Origin: an uncultured Clostridia bacterium
GTDB lineage: Bacteria; Bacillota; Clostridia; Oscillospirales; UBA644
Direction of reading: 5' to 3'
Length of the DNA stretch: 64,000 nt
NCBI GenBank assembly: GCA_948443805.1
Contig: CAOJUB010000010.1
Span: forward strand, 1-64,000
Both the position numbers and the translations under genes were made by a program. Shown here in pieces: positions 78 through 60,795 of the stretch (position 1 is its first letter; each line of letters starts with the position of its first letter). The notes under the pieces were generated by a model. It saw only the letters and a program-made list of their open reading frames with translations. It was not told the origin of the DNA and ran no database searches.

Positions 78-166
78 GGAGAGATATCGAAGTGGTCATA
101 ACGAGGCGGTCTTGAAAACCGTTTGGGGGAAACCCCACAAGGGTTCGAATCCCTTTCTCTCCGCCA
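78..166 (+). tRNA. tRNA-Ser (UGA)
   Basis: The acceptor stem GGAGAGA/TCTCTCC closes an 89-nt cloverleaf with the long variable arm expected of tRNA-Ser. The anticodon loop CTTGAAA gives anticodon TGA (positions 113-115). The T arm carries GGTTCGAATCC and CCA is encoded at 164-166. An integrase remnant lies immediately 3', as is usual when an element has used the tRNA 3' end as its attachment site. Confidence 0.95.
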
Positions 167-15774: not shown

Positions 15775-15849
<75 letters not shown>

Positions 15850-15935
15850 GTTTTAAACGGCAATGGAATAAAAGACAAGCTTTGCCGTTATAGTAAAAAA
15901 CGAACACTTGCGTGCTCATTTTTCCGGATGTAAAA

Positions 15936-16011
15936 TGGAGCGGAATACGGGGCTCGAACCCGCTACCTCAACCTTGGCAAGGTTGCGCTCTACCAGATGA
16001 GCTAATTCCGC
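15936..16011 (-). tRNA. tRNA-Gly (GCC)
   Basis: Acceptor GCGGAAT/ATTCCGC, anticodon loop TTGCCAA (GCC), T arm GGGTTCGAGCCC, encoded CCA. Confidence 0.95.
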
Positions 16012-16050
16012 ATACAGACTGTGGAGCGTTGGGTTCCGACAGTCTAAGGA

Positions 16051-16126
<76 letters not shown>

Positions 16127-16167
16127 ATAACCCTTTTTCCCTTACGGGACTTTCTTAAAAAAGAAAG

Positions 16168-16244
16168 TGGCGACTTCGATGGGGTTCGAACCCACGACCT
16201 CCGCCGTGACAGGGCGGCGTTCTAACCAGCTGAACTACGAAGCC
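16168..16244 (-). tRNA. tRNA-Asp (GTC)
   Basis: Acceptor GGCTTCG/CGAAGTC with one G-U type pair, anticodon loop CTGTCAC (GTC), T arm GGGTTCGAACCCC, encoded CCA. Confidence 0.95.
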
Positions 16245-16261
16245 ATAGAAAAACCGAAGCG

Positions 16262-16337
16262 TGGTGGGAGTTACAGGGCTCGAACCTGTGACCCTCTGCT
16301 TGTAAGGCAGATGCTCTCCCAGCTGAGCTAAACTCCC
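16262..16337 (-). tRNA. tRNA-Val (TAC)
   Basis: Acceptor GGGAGTT/AACTCCC, anticodon loop CTTACAA (TAC), T arm AGGTTCGAGCCCT, encoded CCA. First gene of the cluster. Confidence 0.95.
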
Positions 16338-29643: not shown

Positions 29644-31410
29644 ATGCAGGCAATCACAAAAATACTTAGCGGTTATGCGGCGAAAGCCTTTGAATCATGC
29701 GGATACGATTCCACACTGGGGACCGTTACCTCTTCAGATCGGCTGGATTTGTGCCAGTTTCAGTGCAACGGCGCGTTCGCCGGTGCGAAGCAATACCGGA
29801 AAGCGCCGATGATGATTGCGGAAGAGGTATGCAGGGCGCTTGCCATGGAAGAAATTTTTGAGAAGGCGGAGGCCGCGGCGCCCGGTTTTATTAACCTGAC
29901 CCTGAAAGACAGTGCGCTGATGGCTTTGGCAAAAGAACTTGACGCCGATTCGGAAAGCGGCATTCCCCAGCCGGAAAATCCGGAAACGCTGCTGATTGAT
30001 TACGGCGGTCCGAATGTAGCAAAACCGCTTCACATCGGACATCTGCGTTCGGCAATCATCGGCGAGGCGCTCAAACGCCTGGCGCGCATCTGCGGCCATA
30101 AGGTTACGGGGGATATTCACCTGGGCGACTGGGGGCTGCAAATCGGGCTTGTTATTTGCGGACTGAAAGAACAAATGCCGGATGAACGCTGTTTTTCCGA
30201 GGATTTCGACCCGGAAAAAGATTCGGTTCCGGTGCTGAACTGTGATCTTCTCAGCCAGGTTTATCCGGAAGCCAGCAAAAAGAGCAAGGAAGACGATGTG
30301 TTCCGCGAGCAGGCGCAGGCGGCGACGTTTGACCTGCAGAACCGGAGACCGGGTTATATTGCGCTCTGGAAAGAAATTATGCGCGTATCGATTGCCGATT
30401 TGAAAAAAAGTTATCAGCGGCTGAATGTGGATTTTGATTTATGGTATGGGGAAAGCGATGCCGACGCGTATGTGGATGAACTGATGCGCATTCTGACCCA
30501 AAAAGAGCTTTTGCGGGAGAGCGAAGGTGCATTGGTGGTGGATGTGGAAAAAGAGAGTGATAAAGCGCCCATGCCGCCGATTATCATCAAAAAATCAGAT
30601 CATTCCAATCTGTATGCGACGACCGATCTGGCGACCCTGATTCAGAGAAAGAAAGATTTTTCGCCTGATCGGATTTGGTATGTTGTCGATACGCGGCAGG
30701 GGCTGCACTTTGAACAGGTGTTCCGCTGTGCGGAAAAAGCCGGGATCACCGATGGCATCCGGCCGGAATTTCTTGGTTTTGGAACGATGAACGGCGCCGA
30801 CGGAAAGCCGTATAAGACCCGTGAGGGCGGTGTGATGCGGCTGAGCGATCTGCTGGATCTTGCCGAAAACGCCGCGTTGGAAAAGCTGGAATCCTCGGCT
30901 TATATAAAGAGTCTTTCCGGGGAAGAAAAGAAACAGATTGCGCAGAAAGTTTCGGTGGCGGCGGTGAAATTCGGCGACCTGCAGAACCACCGTGCGAAAG
31001 ATTATATTTTTGATCTGGATAAATTCCTTGCTTTCGAGGGTAAGACCGGAACCTATATTCTTTACACGATTACCCGAATCAATTCAATTCTGAAAAAAGC
31101 CGGCGTATCGCCGGAGGAAAACCCCGAAATTAAGGGAATTTATTCCGCAACCGAACGGGAACTGCTGCTGAATCTGCTGCTGACCGGCGAGCGTTTTGTC
31201 AAAGCGCTGGAAGAACGCGCCCCTAACTATATCTGCGACAACGCCTTTACGCTGGCTTCGCTTTTCTCCGGTTTTTATCACGACAACCGTGTTGTTGACG
31301 AGGCCGATCCGGAGAAAAAAGAATCGTGGCTGGCTTTGCTGCTGCTGACAAAAAAAATGCTGTTGGTGCATCTTGATGTCCTGGGAATCGAAGCGGTGGA
31401 AAATATGTAA
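29644..31410 (+). CDS. argS: Arginyl-tRNA synthetase
   Basis: Class I synthetase charging tRNA-Arg. The 588 residues show the N-terminal Add-1 tRNA D-loop domain (1-100), the HIGH motif as PLHIGHLRSAIIGEAL (about 128), and a catalytic-core ending in KPYKTREGGVMRLSDLL, where the KMSKS-equivalent is the KTREG loop typical of ArgS. A DALR anticodon-binding domain (about 455-588) follows, with YILYTITRINSIL. AAGGA lies nine bases before the ATG. No T-box is seen in its short leader, unlike many Firmicutes synthetase genes. Confidence 0.96.
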   Translation: MQAITKILSGYAAKAFESCGYDSTLGTVTSSDRLDLCQFQCNGAFAGAKQYRKAPMMIAEEVCRALAMEEIFEKAEAAAPGFINLTLKDSALMALAKELDADSESGIPQPENPETLLIDYGGPNVAKPLHIGHLRSAIIGEALKRLARICGHKVTGDIHLGDWGLQIGLVICGLKEQMPDERCFSEDFDPEKDSVPVLNCDLLSQVYPEASKKSKEDDVFREQAQAATFDLQNRRPGYIALWKEIMRVSIADLKKSYQRLNVDFDLWYGESDADAYVDELMRILTQKELLRESEGALVVDVEKESDKAPMPPIIIKKSDHSNLYATTDLATLIQRKKDFSPDRIWYVVDTRQGLHFEQVFRCAEKAGITDGIRPEFLGFGTMNGADGKPYKTREGGVMRLSDLLDLAENAALEKLESSAYIKSLSGEEKKQIAQKVSVAAVKFGDLQNHRAKDYIFDLDKFLAFEGKTGTYILYTITRINSILKKAGVSPEENPEIKGIYSATERELLLNLLLTGERFVKALEERAPNYICDNAFTLASLFSGFYHDNRVVDEADPEKKESWLALLLLTKKMLLVHLDVLGIEAVENM

Positions 31411-50385: not shown

Positions 50386-51054
50386 TCAATCCGAATATTT
50401 TGATTCGGCAAAGGCGAGGATTTCTTTTGCATGAACCGCTATCGGCGTTGGTTGTGTGTCTATTTTTTTCTGGCATAGCGCAAGGGAAAAGTCGGGATGA
50501 CTCATTTGATAAAAATCTTTTTCATATCGATGGAACAAGTGGCCGGATTCAGAAAAATCAAGCTGGGAAAGATCTCCGGAAATTCCTTTTCCGGTCTGTT
50601 TGACATAGCTTTCTTTTAATGTCCAGAATCGGGTAAAGGCTGCTTGAGGATTTGACGACAATGCAATTTCCGCCTGTTCTTTCTGGCTGCATACCCGCCG
50701 GAGAACAGCCGGGGAAACCGGGCGGGGTTCCTGTATGTCGATCCCGGTTTCTCCTTCGGTTTGATCCGAAAGGGAACAGGCCGCGCCTTTTTGGCAGTGG
50801 CTCAGGCTGAAACAGGCCGACGTAAACTTCCAATAAGGTTTCCCTGTTTGGGTATAGGAAAATGGTTCGTTTTTCGGCAGGAGAATCCGGTATTCCTGAT
50901 ACAGCGCCAGCGCCAGCAGAAGATAGGTTGCAACGCAGTTGTTTTGATCGCCGGGGTTTCGGTATCTTTCGGCTTTTTGCCGCCGGTCAGGCGGAAGAAA
51001 GCGGAGAAAATGTGAAAAATCAACCTGGTGCAGCGTATCGCAATAATAGATCAT
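50386..51054 (-). CDS. Sfp-type 4'-phosphopantetheinyl transferase
   Basis: Transfers phosphopantetheine from CoA to a serine of carrier proteins. The 222 residues carry SLSHCQKGAACSLS, GIDIQEPRPVSPAVLRRVC (Mg-binding Asp, about residue 105) and RFWTLKESYVKQTGKGI (W-x-x-KE-x-x-K, about 155). This is the Sfp type associated with peptide or polyketide synthases rather than AcpS, yet no carrier-protein gene is in the window. ATG 51054 has GGGGAGGAAG upstream; the longer frame reaches through the promoter. Confidence 0.9.
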   Translation of the reverse strand: MIYYCDTLHQVDFSHFLRFLPPDRRQKAERYRNPGDQNNCVATYLLLALALYQEYRILLPKNEPFSYTQTGKPYWKFTSACFSLSHCQKGAACSLSDQTEGETGIDIQEPRPVSPAVLRRVCSQKEQAEIALSSNPQAAFTRFWTLKESYVKQTGKGISGDLSQLDFSESGHLFHRYEKDFYQMSHPDFSLALCQKKIDTQPTPIAVHAKEILAFAESKYSD

Positions 51055-56269: not shown

Positions 56270-56644
56270 ATGACGAAAAACGCAGCGCATATCTTGGAGC
56301 TGATTCAGAGCTCCGACAATCATCCGACGGCAGAACAAATTTACGATAAGCTCAGAGAAAATTCCTGTAAAATGGCATTGGCCACCGTTTATAATAATCT
56401 GGCCTATCTTTCTTCGCAGGGGCTGATTCGTAAAATTTCGGTGGAGGGATGGCCCGATCGGTATGATAAGATAATAAAGCACGATCATCTGATCTGTAAA
56501 AAATGCGGAAGGCTGGCGGATATTAAGTTGAAGGATCTGACGGAACAATTGCAACTGCAAATGGAAGACGAAGTTCTTTTTTACGATTTGAAAATCGGAT
56601 ATCTTTGTCCTGTTTGCAGAGAGAAAGGGAAGAATCCCTTTTAG
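56270..56644 (+). CDS. Fur-family regulator, PerR-like
   Basis: A 124-residue metal-dependent repressor. The winged helix (HPTAEQIYDKLRENSCKMALATVYNNLAYLSSQGLIRKI) is followed by HDHLICKKCGRLADI, where His and CxxC mark the regulatory and structural metal sites; a second CPVC pair is in YLCPVCREKG. The four Cys bind structural zinc as in PerR. The protein is short for Fur and fits PerR. Residues that sense peroxide (regulatory His and Asp) are probably in WPDRYDKIIKHDH. The rubrerythrin gene follows, the standard PerR target in anaerobes. Confidence 0.87.
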   Translation: MTKNAAHILELIQSSDNHPTAEQIYDKLRENSCKMALATVYNNLAYLSSQGLIRKISVEGWPDRYDKIIKHDHLICKKCGRLADIKLKDLTEQLQLQMEDEVLFYDLKIGYLCPVCREKGKNPF

Positions 56645-56891
56645 TATCAAGATCGGCAGAAAATACGGCAGACTATTTCTGTCGCCTTAGTCAGGTTTCT
56701 GCTGCGTTTCAACGCGGTACAGTACCGTTTGGTGATTTTTCGTCCGCGGGCATGATATTGTCTGCCAACAAAATGTAAAATGGGAATATCTTCTGTTTTT
56801 TAGAATATAAGATTATCTGTTTCGGCGTTTTCTTTCTGTTCTGGAATGACGGATTTTTGTATGATTTCTATAAATTATACGGAAAAATAAA

Positions 56892-56904
56892 TTGTAAATT
56901 ACAA
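56892..56904. promoter_or_regulatory. Possible PerR-type box before rubrerythrin
   Basis: TTGTAA-A-TTACAA is a perfect 6-1-6 palindrome just upstream of the AGGAGG ribosome site. It resembles PerR boxes but lies downstream of the expected transcription start. Confidence 0.5.
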
Positions 56905-56921
56905 ATAGGAGGGTTTTTATC

Positions 56922-57458
56922 ATGAGCAACAAATATGCAGGCACACAAACCGAAAAGAATCTGGAGGCGGCTTTTGCCGGGGAATCTCAGGCGAGAAACA
57001 AGTACACTTATTTTGCCTCTGCCGCGAAAAAGGAAGGCTACGAGCAGATCGCATCTTTGTTTTTGAAAACGGCCGACAATGAAAAAGAACATGCGAAGAT
57101 GTGGCTCAAAGAACTGAAGGGGATCGGCGATACTGCTGCTAATCTTGCCGCAGCCGCCGACGGTGAAAATTACGAATGGACCGATATGTATGAAGGCTTT
57201 GCCAAGACGGCAGAAGAAGAGGGCTTTCCGGAACTTGCCAAAAAATTCCGTATGGTAGCGGCTGTTGAAAAACATCACGAGGAACGCTACCGCGCCTTGC
57301 TGAAAAATGTGGAAACCGCGGCGGTATTTGAAAAAAGCGAGGTTAAGGTTTGGGAATGCCGCAACTGCGGTCATATCGTCGTCGGCACAAAAGCGCCGGA
57401 GGTTTGCCCTGTTTGCGCCCATCCCCGGAGTTATTTTGAAATCCATGCCGAAAATTAG
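56922..57458 (+). CDS. rbr: Rubrerythrin
   Basis: Reduces hydrogen peroxide in anaerobes using a diiron site fed by a rubredoxin-like centre. The 178 residues have a four-helix bundle with diiron ligands in [42 protein letters not shown] and VEKHHEERY. The C-terminal rubredoxin domain binds iron through [12 protein letters not shown] and [15 protein letters not shown] precedes the ATG. Adjacent to the PerR-like gene. Confidence 0.96.
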
Positions 57459-57659: not shown

Positions 57660-57688
57660 TTGACAGATGACCGTATCCCGAGTATACT
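57660..57688 (+). promoter_or_regulatory. Promoter of the hydrogenase-maturation operon
   Basis: TTGACA, 17-bp spacer, TATACT, giving a leader of about 148 nt before the first gene. Confidence 0.85.
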
Positions 57689-57694
57689 ATATTT

Positions 57695-57842
57695 GTATCC
57701 TGACGCCAAAAAAGATTTTTGAGGGGAAAGGTTCGGCTTGATAATGTTTTTCGGAACAGTGTTTTTATGCAGCCTGTTCTGCGTTGCCGTACCTTTTTGA
57801 AAGGTACGGCATTTTTTATTATTATGAAAAGGTTGTGAAAGA
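57695..57842 (+). promoter_or_regulatory. Candidate attenuator or riboswitch leader of TM1266-hydG-hydF
   Basis: An intrinsic terminator (GCCGTACCTTT 57786-57796, AAAGGTACGGC 57800-57810, then ATTTTTTATT) lies inside the leader between promoter and first gene. Upstream, AAAGGTTCGGC at 57727-57737 copies the terminator's 3' arm except for one base and could pair with the 5' arm as an antiterminator. Between them lies GAACAG/CTGTTC (about 57754-57780). Mutually exclusive folds are the hallmark of transcription attenuation. I do not recognise a known riboswitch class. Confidence 0.65.
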
Positions 57843-58109
57843 ATGGAAACCCGGATCGCCGTGATCGGCGTTGTTGTTGAAAATCCGGAATCCACTGAAA
57901 TTCTGAACGGAATCCTGCATGAATACCGGCAGTGGATTATCGGCAGGATGGGGATTCCGTACCGGCAGAAAAAGGTAAGTATTATCAGCCTTGCCGTGGA
58001 TGCGCCGCAGGAGATTATTGCGGCTCTTTCCGGAAAAATCGGAAAATTACCGGGCGTTTCTTCCAAGACGGCCTATTCGGCGGTTAAAAACGGAACGGAA
58101 ACGGCCTGA
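57843..58109 (+). CDS. TM1266-type iron-only hydrogenase system regulator
   Basis: An 88-residue ACT/ferredoxin-like-fold protein of the TM1266 family, which is encoded beside [FeFe]-hydrogenase maturases in many anaerobes. Sequence features are ETRIAVIGVVVENPES, RQWIIGRMGIPYRQKKVSIISLAVDAP and GKLPGVSSKTAYS. It is annotated as a putative hydrogenase regulator; no DNA-binding motif is visible and its ligand is unknown. It is first in an operon with hydG, which begins 48 bp downstream. Confidence 0.88.
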   Translation: METRIAVIGVVVENPESTEILNGILHEYRQWIIGRMGIPYRQKKVSIISLAVDAPQEIIAALSGKIGKLPGVSSKTAYSAVKNGTETA

Positions 58110-58157
58110 CAGCGCCAAAACCATGAGAATATGGAAAAAAGAAGGGACTTGATCGCA

Positions 58158-59573
58158 GTGTACAATCCGAAATCAATGAAAGCGGAAGAATTTATCAGCC
58201 ATGAGGAAATTCTTGATACGCTGGCATTTGCGGAGGAAAATAAAAATAATCTTATTCTCATTGACGAGATTTTGGAAAAAGCTCGGCAGAAAAAAGGGCT
58301 GACGCACCGGGAGGCTTCGGTTCTTCTCGCGTGTGAAAATCCGGAAAAAAACAGCGCGATGTTTGAACTCGCCGAGCAGATCAAAAAAGATTTTTACGGA
58401 AACCGGATTGTGATTTTCGCACCGCTGTATCTTTCAAACTATTGTGTCAACGGCTGTCTGTACTGCCCGTATCATTTGAAAAATACCCATATTGCCCGTA
58501 AGAAACTGACGCAGGAAGAAGTGAAAAATGAGGTTATTGCGCTGCAGGACATGGGGCATAAGCGGTTGGCGATCGAGGCGGGCGAAGACCCGGTCAATAA
58601 CCCGATCGAATATATTCTGGAGTGTATCAACACCATCTATTCCATCAAACATAAAAACGGAGCGATTCGCCGGGTAAATGTGAATATTGCCGCGACGACG
58701 GTGGAAAATTACCGGAAACTGAAAGAGGCCGGAATCGGAACCTATATCCTGTTCCAGGAAACGTATCATAAAGAAAGCTATGAGACGCTGCACCCAACCG
58801 GGCCGAAGCACAATTACACCTATCATACCGAGGCGATGGACCGTGCCATGCAGGGCGGGATTGATGATGTGGGGCTTGGCGTTCTGTTCGGGCTGGAGCT
58901 GTATAAATATGAGTTTGCAGGGCTTCTTATGCACGCCGAGCACCTGGAAGCTGTACACGGCGTGGGGCCGCATACGATCAGTGTTCCCCGGATTAAGCGT
59001 GCTGACGATATTGATCCGGACGTCTTTGACAATGGGATCAGCGATGAAATTTTTGCAAAACTTTGCGCTCTGATTCGTATTGCCGTTCCGTATACGGGGA
59101 TGATTATTTCTACCCGGGAAAGTCAGCAGGTTCGTGAAAAGGTGATCCGTCTCGGCGTTTCACAGGTCAGCGGCGCTTCAAGAACCTCCGTGGGCGGATA
59201 TTGCGAAAAAGAGCGCCCGACCGATACCGAACAGTTTGACGTTTCCGACCAGCGGACGTTGGACGAAGTGGTAAAATGGCTGATGGAGATGGGATATATT
59301 CCTTCCTTCTGCACCGCCTGTTATCGGGAGGGGCGGACCGGCGACCGTTTTATGGCTCTTTGCAAGAGCAAACAGATTCAGAACTGCTGCCATCCCAATG
59401 CTTTGATGACGCTGAAGGAATTTTTGACCGATTACGCATCGGAGGAAACAAAGAAGATCGGCGAGGCGTTGATTGCGGCGGAACTGAACAATATTCCGAC
59501 CGATAAGGTTCGGACCCTATGCAGCGATCATCTTGCGAAGATTGAACAGGGAATCCGGGACTTCCGGTTTTGA
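58158..59573 (+). CDS. hydG: [FeFe]-hydrogenase H-cluster radical SAM maturase HydG
   Basis: Cleaves tyrosine to form the CO and CN ligands of the H-cluster. The radical SAM motif is YCVNGCLYCPYH, and the second C-terminal cluster lies in SFCTACYREGRTGDRF...LCKSKQIQNCC. Other family blocks are IEAGEDPVNNPIEYILE and GPHTISVPRIKRADD. The longest frame starts at ATG 58131 without a ribosome site. I prefer GTG 58158, with GAAGGGA ten bases upstream, giving the usual start V/M-YNPKSMKAEEFI (471 residues). HydE, the third maturase, is not in this window. Confidence 0.95.
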   Translation: MYNPKSMKAEEFISHEEILDTLAFAEENKNNLILIDEILEKARQKKGLTHREASVLLACENPEKNSAMFELAEQIKKDFYGNRIVIFAPLYLSNYCVNGCLYCPYHLKNTHIARKKLTQEEVKNEVIALQDMGHKRLAIEAGEDPVNNPIEYILECINTIYSIKHKNGAIRRVNVNIAATTVENYRKLKEAGIGTYILFQETYHKESYETLHPTGPKHNYTYHTEAMDRAMQGGIDDVGLGVLFGLELYKYEFAGLLMHAEHLEAVHGVGPHTISVPRIKRADDIDPDVFDNGISDEIFAKLCALIRIAVPYTGMIISTRESQQVREKVIRLGVSQVSGASRTSVGGYCEKERPTDTEQFDVSDQRTLDEVVKWLMEMGYIPSFCTACYREGRTGDRFMALCKSKQIQNCCHPNALMTLKEFLTDYASEETKKIGEALIAAELNNIPTDKVRTLCSDHLAKIEQGIRDFRF

Positions 59574-59598
59574 CCGGTCAGAAAAGAAAGGAAGAACG

Positions 59599-60795
59599 AT
59601 GGGATTGAATGGAACGCCTTCGGCCGAACGGCTTCATATCGGTTTTTTCGGACGGCGCAATGCTGGAAAATCAAGCCTTGTCAATGCGGTAACCGGGCAG
59701 GAGCTTTCGGTGGTCTCCGATGTCCGGGGAACGACGACCGATCCGGTTTACAAATCGATGGAACTGCTGCCGATGGGACCGGTGTTGATCATTGATACGC
59801 CGGGCTTTGACGATGAGGGCTCGCTTGGGGAACTTCGCGTGAAAAAAACCCGGCAGATTCTTAACCGTGTAGACTGCGCCGTGCTGGTCGTTGACGCATC
59901 GGTTGGAAAAACAGCGGCAGACGAAGAACTGACGGCCTTGTTTCAGGAAAAAGAGATTCCGTTTCTTGTAGCCTATAATAAAGGCGATCTTCTTGCCGGA
60001 CAGAAGAATGCTTTTTCCGATGGACTTTTGGTCAGCGCCGAAACGGGGGCGAATGTCTGGGATCTGAAGGAGCGGATTGCGCAGCTGGTCAAAACCGGGG
60101 AAAACCGGAGTTTGATCCGGGATCTGATATCGGACGGCGATTTGGTCGTTTTGGTTACGCCGATTGATTCAGCCGCGCCGAAAGGGCGGATGATTTTACC
60201 GCAGCAGCAGATGATCCGGGATATTCTCGACGCCGACGCAATGTCTGTTGTTGTGAAGGAGTTCCAGTTTGAAAGCGCGCTGAAGAAATTATCTTCGCCG
60301 CCCGTTATGGTTGTGACCGACAGCCAGATTTTTGAATGGATGGCCAAAGTTACGCCGCCGGAGATTCCGCTGACGTCATTTTCGATCCTGATGGCTCGGT
60401 ATAAGGGGTTTCTTGAAGAAGCCGTGCGGGGCGCTGCGGCAATCGGCCGGCTGAAAGACGGCGACCGGGTTCTGATTGCCGAAGGCTGTACGCATCACCG
60501 GCAGTGCGATGATATCGGCAGTGTGAAAATCCCCCGGTGGTTGCGGGAATTTACCGGAAAGAACCTTGTCTGCGAGAATTCTGCCGGACGGGATTTCCCC
60601 GAGGATCTCGCAGAATATGCACTGGTGATTCATTGTGGCGGCTGTATGCTGAATGAACGGGAACTTCGTTATCGGAAAAAATGCGCGATCGATGGTGGTG
60701 TCCCCTTTACGAATTACGGGATTGCGATTGCTTATATGAAAGGAATCCTAAAACGCAGCCTGTCGCTTTTTCCGGATTTGGAAAAGCTGCTTTAA
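59599..60795 (+). CDS. hydF: [FeFe]-hydrogenase maturation GTPase HydF
   Basis: GTPase scaffold that assembles the 2Fe subcluster and loads it into HydA. The 398 residues have G1 GRRNAGKSSLVNAV, G3 DTPGFDDEG and G4 YNKGDL in the N-terminal domain, a dimerisation domain, and a C-terminal cluster domain with the Fe-S ligands in EGCTHHRQCDD and CGGCMLN (pattern C-x-HH ... C-x2-C). The ATG at 59599 has AAAGGAAG upstream. Last gene of the operon. Confidence 0.95.
   Translation: MGLNGTPSAERLHIGFFGRRNAGKSSLVNAVTGQELSVVSDVRGTTTDPVYKSMELLPMGPVLIIDTPGFDDEGSLGELRVKKTRQILNRVDCAVLVVDASVGKTAADEELTALFQEKEIPFLVAYNKGDLLAGQKNAFSDGLLVSAETGANVWDLKERIAQLVKTGENRSLIRDLISDGDLVVLVTPIDSAAPKGRMILPQQQMIRDILDADAMSVVVKEFQFESALKKLSSPPVMVVTDSQIFEWMAKVTPPEIPLTSFSILMARYKGFLEEAVRGAAAIGRLKDGDRVLIAEGCTHHRQCDDIGSVKIPRWLREFTGKNLVCENSAGRDFPEDLAEYALVIHCGGCMLNERELRYRKKCAIDGGVPFTNYGIAIAYMKGILKRSLSLFPDLEKLL

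Follow-up and report, generated by a model that had tools for sequence, protein, structure and literature searches.

A candidate attenuator with a palindromic RNA hairpin in the leader of TM1266-hydrogenase maturation operons of Clostridia

Analysis of a 64,000-nucleotide stretch of DNA from an uncultured Clostridia bacterium (here called the window) showed a hydrogenase maturation operon on the forward strand, and curated models matched all three genes downstream of its leader in the order given by a first-pass annotation of the sequence, TM1266-hydG-hydF. These genes encode a TM1266-family protein of 88 amino acids (57843-58109, +; TIGR03959, 111.5 bits against a curated cutoff of 60.8, E = 1.2e-32), the H-cluster radical SAM maturase HydG (58131-59573, +; TIGR03955, 937.5 bits), and the H-cluster maturation GTPase HydF (59533-60795, +; TIGR03918, 544.1 bits), the true start of which is probably near 59599. 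They are preceded by a sigma-70 type promoter (57660-57688, +; TTGACA-17-TATACT, 11 of 12 consensus bases), whose position would place the start of the transcript near 57695. Shortly before the operon, and on its strand, are genes for a Fur/PerR-like regulator and rubrerythrin (56270-57458), an oxidative-stress neighborhood; elsewhere in the window, five tRNA genes are clustered at 15778-16337 (-), and another tRNA gene lies at 78-163 (+).

The leader contains an intrinsic terminator, as the first-pass annotation had noted: a stem-loop at 57785-57811 (+), with the stem TGCCGTACCTTT-TTG-AAAGGTACGGCA, is followed by the T-tract TTTTTT (57812-57817, +). The same annotation had pointed to an upstream duplicate of one terminator arm, and this was borne out, in that the 3' arm AAAGGTACGGC (57800-57810) is repeated with one mismatch by AAAGGTTCGGC (57727-57737); the upstream segment can indeed sequester the terminator 5' arm, since an antiterminator fold of -26.9 kcal/mol is obtained when the 3' arm is left out. 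The antiterminator 5' strand GAAAGGTTCGGC (57726-57737, +) shares bases with the 3' arm of the dyad hairpin described below, its partner is the terminator 5' arm (57786-57796, +), which serves also as the antiterminator 3' strand, and a hairpin CGGAACAG/CTGTTCTG (57752-57781, +) is nested within the antiterminator. The full leader folds as the terminator (-37.6 kcal/mol, z = -2.8 versus dinucleotide shuffles). The riboswitch, T-box, and leader families of Rfam 15 gave no gathering-threshold match in the window leader or in 10 homologous loci, in line with the earlier remark that no known riboswitch was recognizable here; permissive matches (PyrR, RNAI, P34, and others) all fell under the gathering threshold and were rejected as resemblances of terminator or architecture.

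A DNA search with the leader itself as query yielded no homologous leader among relatives. Homologous leaders were therefore gathered by way of the TM1266 gene, by taking the DNA 5' of TM1266 genes throughout the family, order, and class; a further sample of 80 TM1266 loci was drawn from a different genome collection, and a few of these may be the same genomes. The antiterminator pairing, on whose conservation in homologous leaders the proposal of an attenuator had been made to depend, is kept and is locus specific. Among 96 leaders, the segment paired with its own terminator arm at a mean of -10.49 kcal/mol, versus -7.52 kcal/mol (standard deviation, 0.25) with swapped arms, and the best of 5,000 permutations reached -8.38 kcal/mol, weaker than the own-arm mean; these permutation statistics, like the Fisher tests below, are inflated by shared ancestry, which leaves the slid-column controls unaffected. 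A terminator follows the hairpin in 100 of 130 hairpin-carrying leaders. The motif and the attenuator are thereby supported computationally, and the first-pass description of a candidate new attenuator stands, with a conserved antiterminator pairing, terminators in most hairpin-carrying leaders, and no Rfam match at the gathering threshold; the tyrosine and SAM signals that it suggested are not favored (see below), and it overlooked a conserved anti-antiterminator hairpin.

Side-by-side comparison of leaders revealed this hairpin as a common element 5' of the terminator, composed of P1 (YCU/AGR), a GA/RA internal loop, P2 of 3 to 4 bp, an RA/GA internal loop, and P3. In the window it occupies 57699-57731 (+), with P1 at 57699-57701/57729-57731, the GA/AA loop at 57702-57703/57727-57728, P2 at 57704-57707/57723-57726 with one G.G mismatch (57705/57725), the AA/GA loop at 57708-57709/57721-57722, and P3 at 57710-57713/57717-57720. 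It scored 36.5 bits (E = 1.5e-7 in its own genome) with the covariance model R3 and 32.3 bits with the model R2, the training sets of which both include the window's copy. Covariation in related leaders, which the first-pass annotation had proposed to look for, was found: in an alignment of 29 hairpins, each of the 10 pairs has changes in both partners, and 92% of the cells are paired, versus less than 50% when the partner is slid by 1 to 3 columns. Because these hairpins were partly chosen for pairing, P2 was retested on hairpins picked by sequence anchors alone, which are blind to P2. Here, 63% of P2 was Watson-Crick paired, versus 37% with the 3' strands swapped (z = 12, n = 125) and 21 to 33% with the partner slid; after hairpins at least 80% alike were dropped, the value was 48% in register versus 21 to 32% slid.

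The same consensus, 5'-YCUGA-N(3-4)-RAAG-3', is found position by position on both strands of the hairpin, and the two GA/RA internal loops flank a covarying helix of 3 to 4 bp, while the terminal loop is variable. The sequences thus describe what appears to be a palindromic, two-fold symmetric RNA operator with covarying stems, and such an RNA palindrome is of a kind that a protein with two-fold symmetry could recognize. The hairpin 3' arm AAAGG is also the start of the antiterminator strand, so that hairpin and antiterminator are mutually exclusive; as read from the sequence, the upstream hairpin is an anti-antiterminator, and it would be the conserved sensor. Unaided, the hairpins are weak (minimum free energy of -5.9 kcal/mol in the window and a mean of -7.7 kcal/mol for the 29 hairpins), whereas the window's antiterminator is strong (-22.5 kcal/mol), and a stabilizing factor is therefore expected; the default state is probably read-through, and something must stabilize the hairpin for termination to occur.

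A covariance-model scan of some 580 genomes placed nearly all of the 57 strongest genome-wide matches just 5' of TM1266, hydG, or hydE, and in the 80 further TM1266 loci every match (63 of 63 with R3, 26 of 26 with R2) lay on the TM1266 strand. R3 was trained mainly on 4-bp forms of P2 and misses many 3-bp forms, so that motif counts are lower bounds. The motif is common to many gut and soil bacteria, being found throughout Clostridia and, in front of the same genes, in other classes of the phylum; further sites precede hydF, an aspA-hydF pair, a GNAT-hydG pair, FecCD/FecB iron-type and NitT/TauT-type ABC transporters, and NifH/NifD-like operons. At one such locus (L190), the aspartate ammonia-lyase gene carries the attenuator and hydF directly follows; in two related genomes (L181 and L204), the tandem hairpins plus terminator are separated from hydG by a GNAT acetyltransferase gene; and at six loci (L191, L194, L210, L316, L319, and L321), NitT/TauT-type (NMT1-like) ABC transporters come after the hairpin or directly after TM1266. 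Most leaders have one copy of the motif and tandem copies occur, and in many operons a second copy abuts the hydG Shine-Dalgarno sequence (for example, at L239, CUGACGGGAAAG...CUGACCCAAAAGAAAGGAUGAAUUACUAUG). Cultured carriers include Lacrimispora amygdalina, Mobilitalea sibirica, Sporobacter termitidis, and Massilioclostridium coli (loci L239, L240, L236, and L289). The use of one hairpin at terminators as well as at ribosome sites implies that the site of binding is the hairpin. Weak extra R2 matches in the window (50780-50842, -; 30488-30528, +) and a second R3 match in its own genome (G000, contig C4, 25575-25610) were dismissed as chance, each lying in or beside coding sequence with no hyd gene. 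A CRISPR array with a Cas12a-like repeat (GTCTAATCACCTCTAATAATTTCTACTGTTGTAGAT) was seen just upstream of one hydrogenase leader (L053).

When the same genomes were cross-tabulated for TM1266, HydG, and the motif (R3, E of 0.001 or less, pooled), the motif was present in 75 of 177 genomes with both proteins versus 4 of 30 with HydG alone (p = 0.002), and in 18 of 42 with TM1266 alone versus 2 of 135 with neither (p = 2.7e-11), these being Fisher p values that ignore relatedness between genomes. The motif tracks TM1266, irrespective of HydG. Tyrosine and SAM, two of the signals put forward in the first-pass annotation, are disfavored by the 18 of 42 genomes in which TM1266 and the motif occur without HydG. 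Six TM1266-negative genomes gave motif matches. Four of these matches look like chance, three lying in or overlapping coding sequence (G129, G308, and G315) and one preceding an unrelated gene (G002); two are convincing (G370 and G219), with the motif at hydG and no TM1266 detected, and since both are incomplete metagenome-assembled genomes, the TM1266 gene may be missing from the assemblies. Overall, the motif was detected in 93 of 219 TM1266 genomes at the same threshold; in the rest, either TM1266 acts on other targets or diverged copies escaped the models.

Where HydG is absent, TM1266-motif units stand at the front of operons that carry FecCD and NifH-like genes or NitT-type ABC genes, and others contain an apparent ECF-type transporter and NADH-dependent hydrogenase genes (named from translations). 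TM1266 is thus the constant neighbor while the enzymes change. At three loci (L314, L315, and L318), the gene after TM1266 encodes an ECF-type S-component-like membrane protein, and two of these (L314 and L315) also have apparent HndABCD-like NADH hydrogenase genes, again read from translations. NifH-like and nitrogenase component-1-like genes were seen in TM1266- or motif-linked clusters at six loci (L192, L212, L231, L312, L313, and L317), sometimes with HydE, HydF, or FecCD and without HydG; these clusters are an uncharacterized nitrogenase-like system linked to H-cluster maturases.

By curated cutoffs, the window protein is a member of the TM1266 family (TIGR03959, PF21699; structure 2nzc), for which annotation goes no further than putative (hydrogenase) regulator. 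Its AlphaFold2 model (pLDDT, 92.8) has a single ferredoxin-like domain, for which 2nzc (Thermotoga maritima TM1266) was the best Foldseek match, followed by NikR's metal-sensing domain (query TM-score of about 0.8); R4, R35, K75, and several glycines are invariant in TM1266. Neither the model nor the Foldseek search showed a ribbon-helix-helix DNA-binding domain in the 88 residues. TM1266 is thus predicted to share the metal-sensing fold of the nickel-responsive repressor NikR but to lack the ribbon-helix-helix domain with which NikR binds DNA, and a NikR-like homo-oligomer would fit a two-fold symmetric RNA. A search of open-access literature found no description of the RNA element or of an RNA role or target for TM1266, and a report in a subscription journal is possible. 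A second, low-scoring TM1266-like family (L218-L230), found near prfB, fusA, and other housekeeping genes, has no hyd linkage and was set aside.

The explanation that we favor, with somewhat more confidence than doubt, is a three-state attenuator built on a new RNA operator, in which the hairpin is bound by an oligomer of TM1266, which thereby reduces expression of its own operon and of related ones; we infer the identity of the binder, the OFF direction, and the signal. Among the signals listed in the first-pass annotation, RNA binding by TM1266 itself would fit best, because the motif tracks TM1266 with or without hydG, the hairpin is dyad symmetric, and it is used both transcriptionally and next to ribosome-binding sites. 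In the OFF state, the 5' hairpin (57699-57731) would form and take up the AAAGG segment, leaving the terminator to form; in the ON state, the hairpin would not be held, AAAGGTTCGGC would pair with the terminator 5' arm, and no terminator would form. By stabilizing the hairpin, TM1266 would bring about termination; since its gene usually comes first in the operon, this would amount to negative feedback on its own synthesis. A hairpin lying against the hydG Shine-Dalgarno sequence would, when bound, block the ribosome site and repress translation, and tandem copies could sharpen the response. Because TM1266 has the fold of the NikR metal-sensing domain, an input related to metal, redox state, or Fe-S clusters is plausible; the fold and the regulon, which includes H-cluster assembly, iron-type transport, and NifH-like enzymes, point toward a cue from metal or redox state and away from tyrosine or SAM. 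Counted against this explanation are the G.G mismatch in the window's own P2, the TM1266 genomes in which the motif was not detected, the motif copies before transporter or NifH-like operons away from TM1266, and the two convincing motifs in genomes with no detected TM1266.

The proposed arrangement resembles several known systems. PyrR is a regulator often encoded by the first gene of its operon, acting by termination in some lineages and by control of translation in others. PyrR attenuators (RF00515) likewise combine an anti-antiterminator hairpin, an antiterminator, and a terminator, often with the regulator gene first, and we propose by analogy that the TM1266 leader may work in a PyrR-like manner, through negative feedback on its own operon as PyrR exerts on pyr. 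The RF00515 model matched the window leader at only 24.1 bits (E = 0.12 to 0.35) against a gathering threshold of 54, the match starting inside the hairpin at 57712. The window differs in the sequence of its CUGA/RAAG dyad, in its genes (TM1266, hydG, and hydF, with no pyrimidine genes or pyrR), and in the proposed protein; because the Rfam cutoff is missed and genes and sequence differ, the leader is not a PyrR site. The RAT elements of LicT/BglG, which lie near a terminator, are hairpins whose two internal loops are recognized by a dimeric protein. There, however, the bound hairpin acts as the antiterminator and overlaps with the terminator, whereas the window hairpin overlaps with the antiterminator; the window's operon showed no BglG-type protein. 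ANTAR two-hairpin elements are protein-responsive hairpins before terminators; they are read through their hairpin loops, whereas here the internal loops are conserved, the terminal loops are variable, and mostly one copy is present.

Other readings of the same data have to be weighed. Instead of a protein, the short hairpin might bind a small ligand such as a metal ion or a cofactor precursor, with TM1266 a frequent member of the regulon. Such a riboswitch, to which we assign a minor but appreciable chance, would be in keeping with the tandem copies and with the use of one motif in termination and ribosome-binding-site settings, both also typical of riboswitches, and the FecBCD-type and NitT/TauT-type transporters could carry the ligand or its precursor. 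However, an aptamer in the form of a two-fold symmetric helix, with a pair of similar GA/RA loops and only about 14 conserved positions, would be unusual, the diverse downstream enzymes have no obvious single metabolite in common, and the motif tracks TM1266 even where HydG is absent. That last association also bears on an unlinked RNA-binding factor that reads the hairpin while TM1266 is merely co-regulated: this would require the factor to accompany TM1266 from family to family, and TM1266 is the most constant neighbor of the motif, operons without hydG included. We regard this factor as improbable, although G370 and G219 carry the motif with no detected TM1266 and the literature searched yielded no TM1266-RNA interaction. 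TM1266 could also act in the opposite direction, disrupting the hairpin or stabilizing the antiterminator to turn the operon on, as LicT/BglG-type proteins bind two-loop hairpins and promote read-through. This direction seems unlikely, slightly less so than the unlinked factor, since a stabilized hairpin holds the AAAGG needed by the antiterminator and should favor the terminator, and the hydG copies abutting ribosome-binding sites suggest repression on binding.

A DNA operator for a transcription factor, with the hairpin incidental, is suggested by an inverted repeat close to a promoter, but we consider it very improbable: the stems show covariation on either side of the conserved GA/RA internal loops, a conserved antiterminator shares the 3' arm, copies lie at the hydG ribosome-binding site inside operons, away from promoters, and TM1266 has no DNA-binding domain. 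Ribosome-mediated attenuation through a leader peptide, or a tyrosine T-box, is scarcely credible even with an 18-codon frame starting at 57745 and the consumption of tyrosine by HydG; short frames preceded by a Shine-Dalgarno sequence occur in 77 of 180 leaders against 74.9 expected by shuffling, which is no enrichment, and neither a T-box nor any other Rfam family matched at the gathering threshold.

If repression through TM1266 bound to the hairpin is correct, TM1266, a protein with a solved structure (2nzc) for which the sources searched name no target, gains a concrete candidate target and mechanism, and [FeFe]-hydrogenase maturation in fermenting gut and environmental Clostridia gains a layer of control after transcription start. 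Binding of the hairpin by TM1266 would represent a new use, RNA binding, of the NikR/ACT-like fold and would provide an uncommonly clear case of a palindromic RNA operator. The regulon ties uncharacterized NifH/NifD-like clusters and ABC transporters to hydrogenase assembly. On the widest claim our judgment is evenly balanced: a new palindromic RNA operator read by TM1266 may define a new family of RNA-binding regulators, NikR-type metal-sensing domains working on RNA rather than DNA, that couples cofactor assembly for hydrogenases and nitrogenase-like enzymes to metal or redox supply, through both termination and translation.
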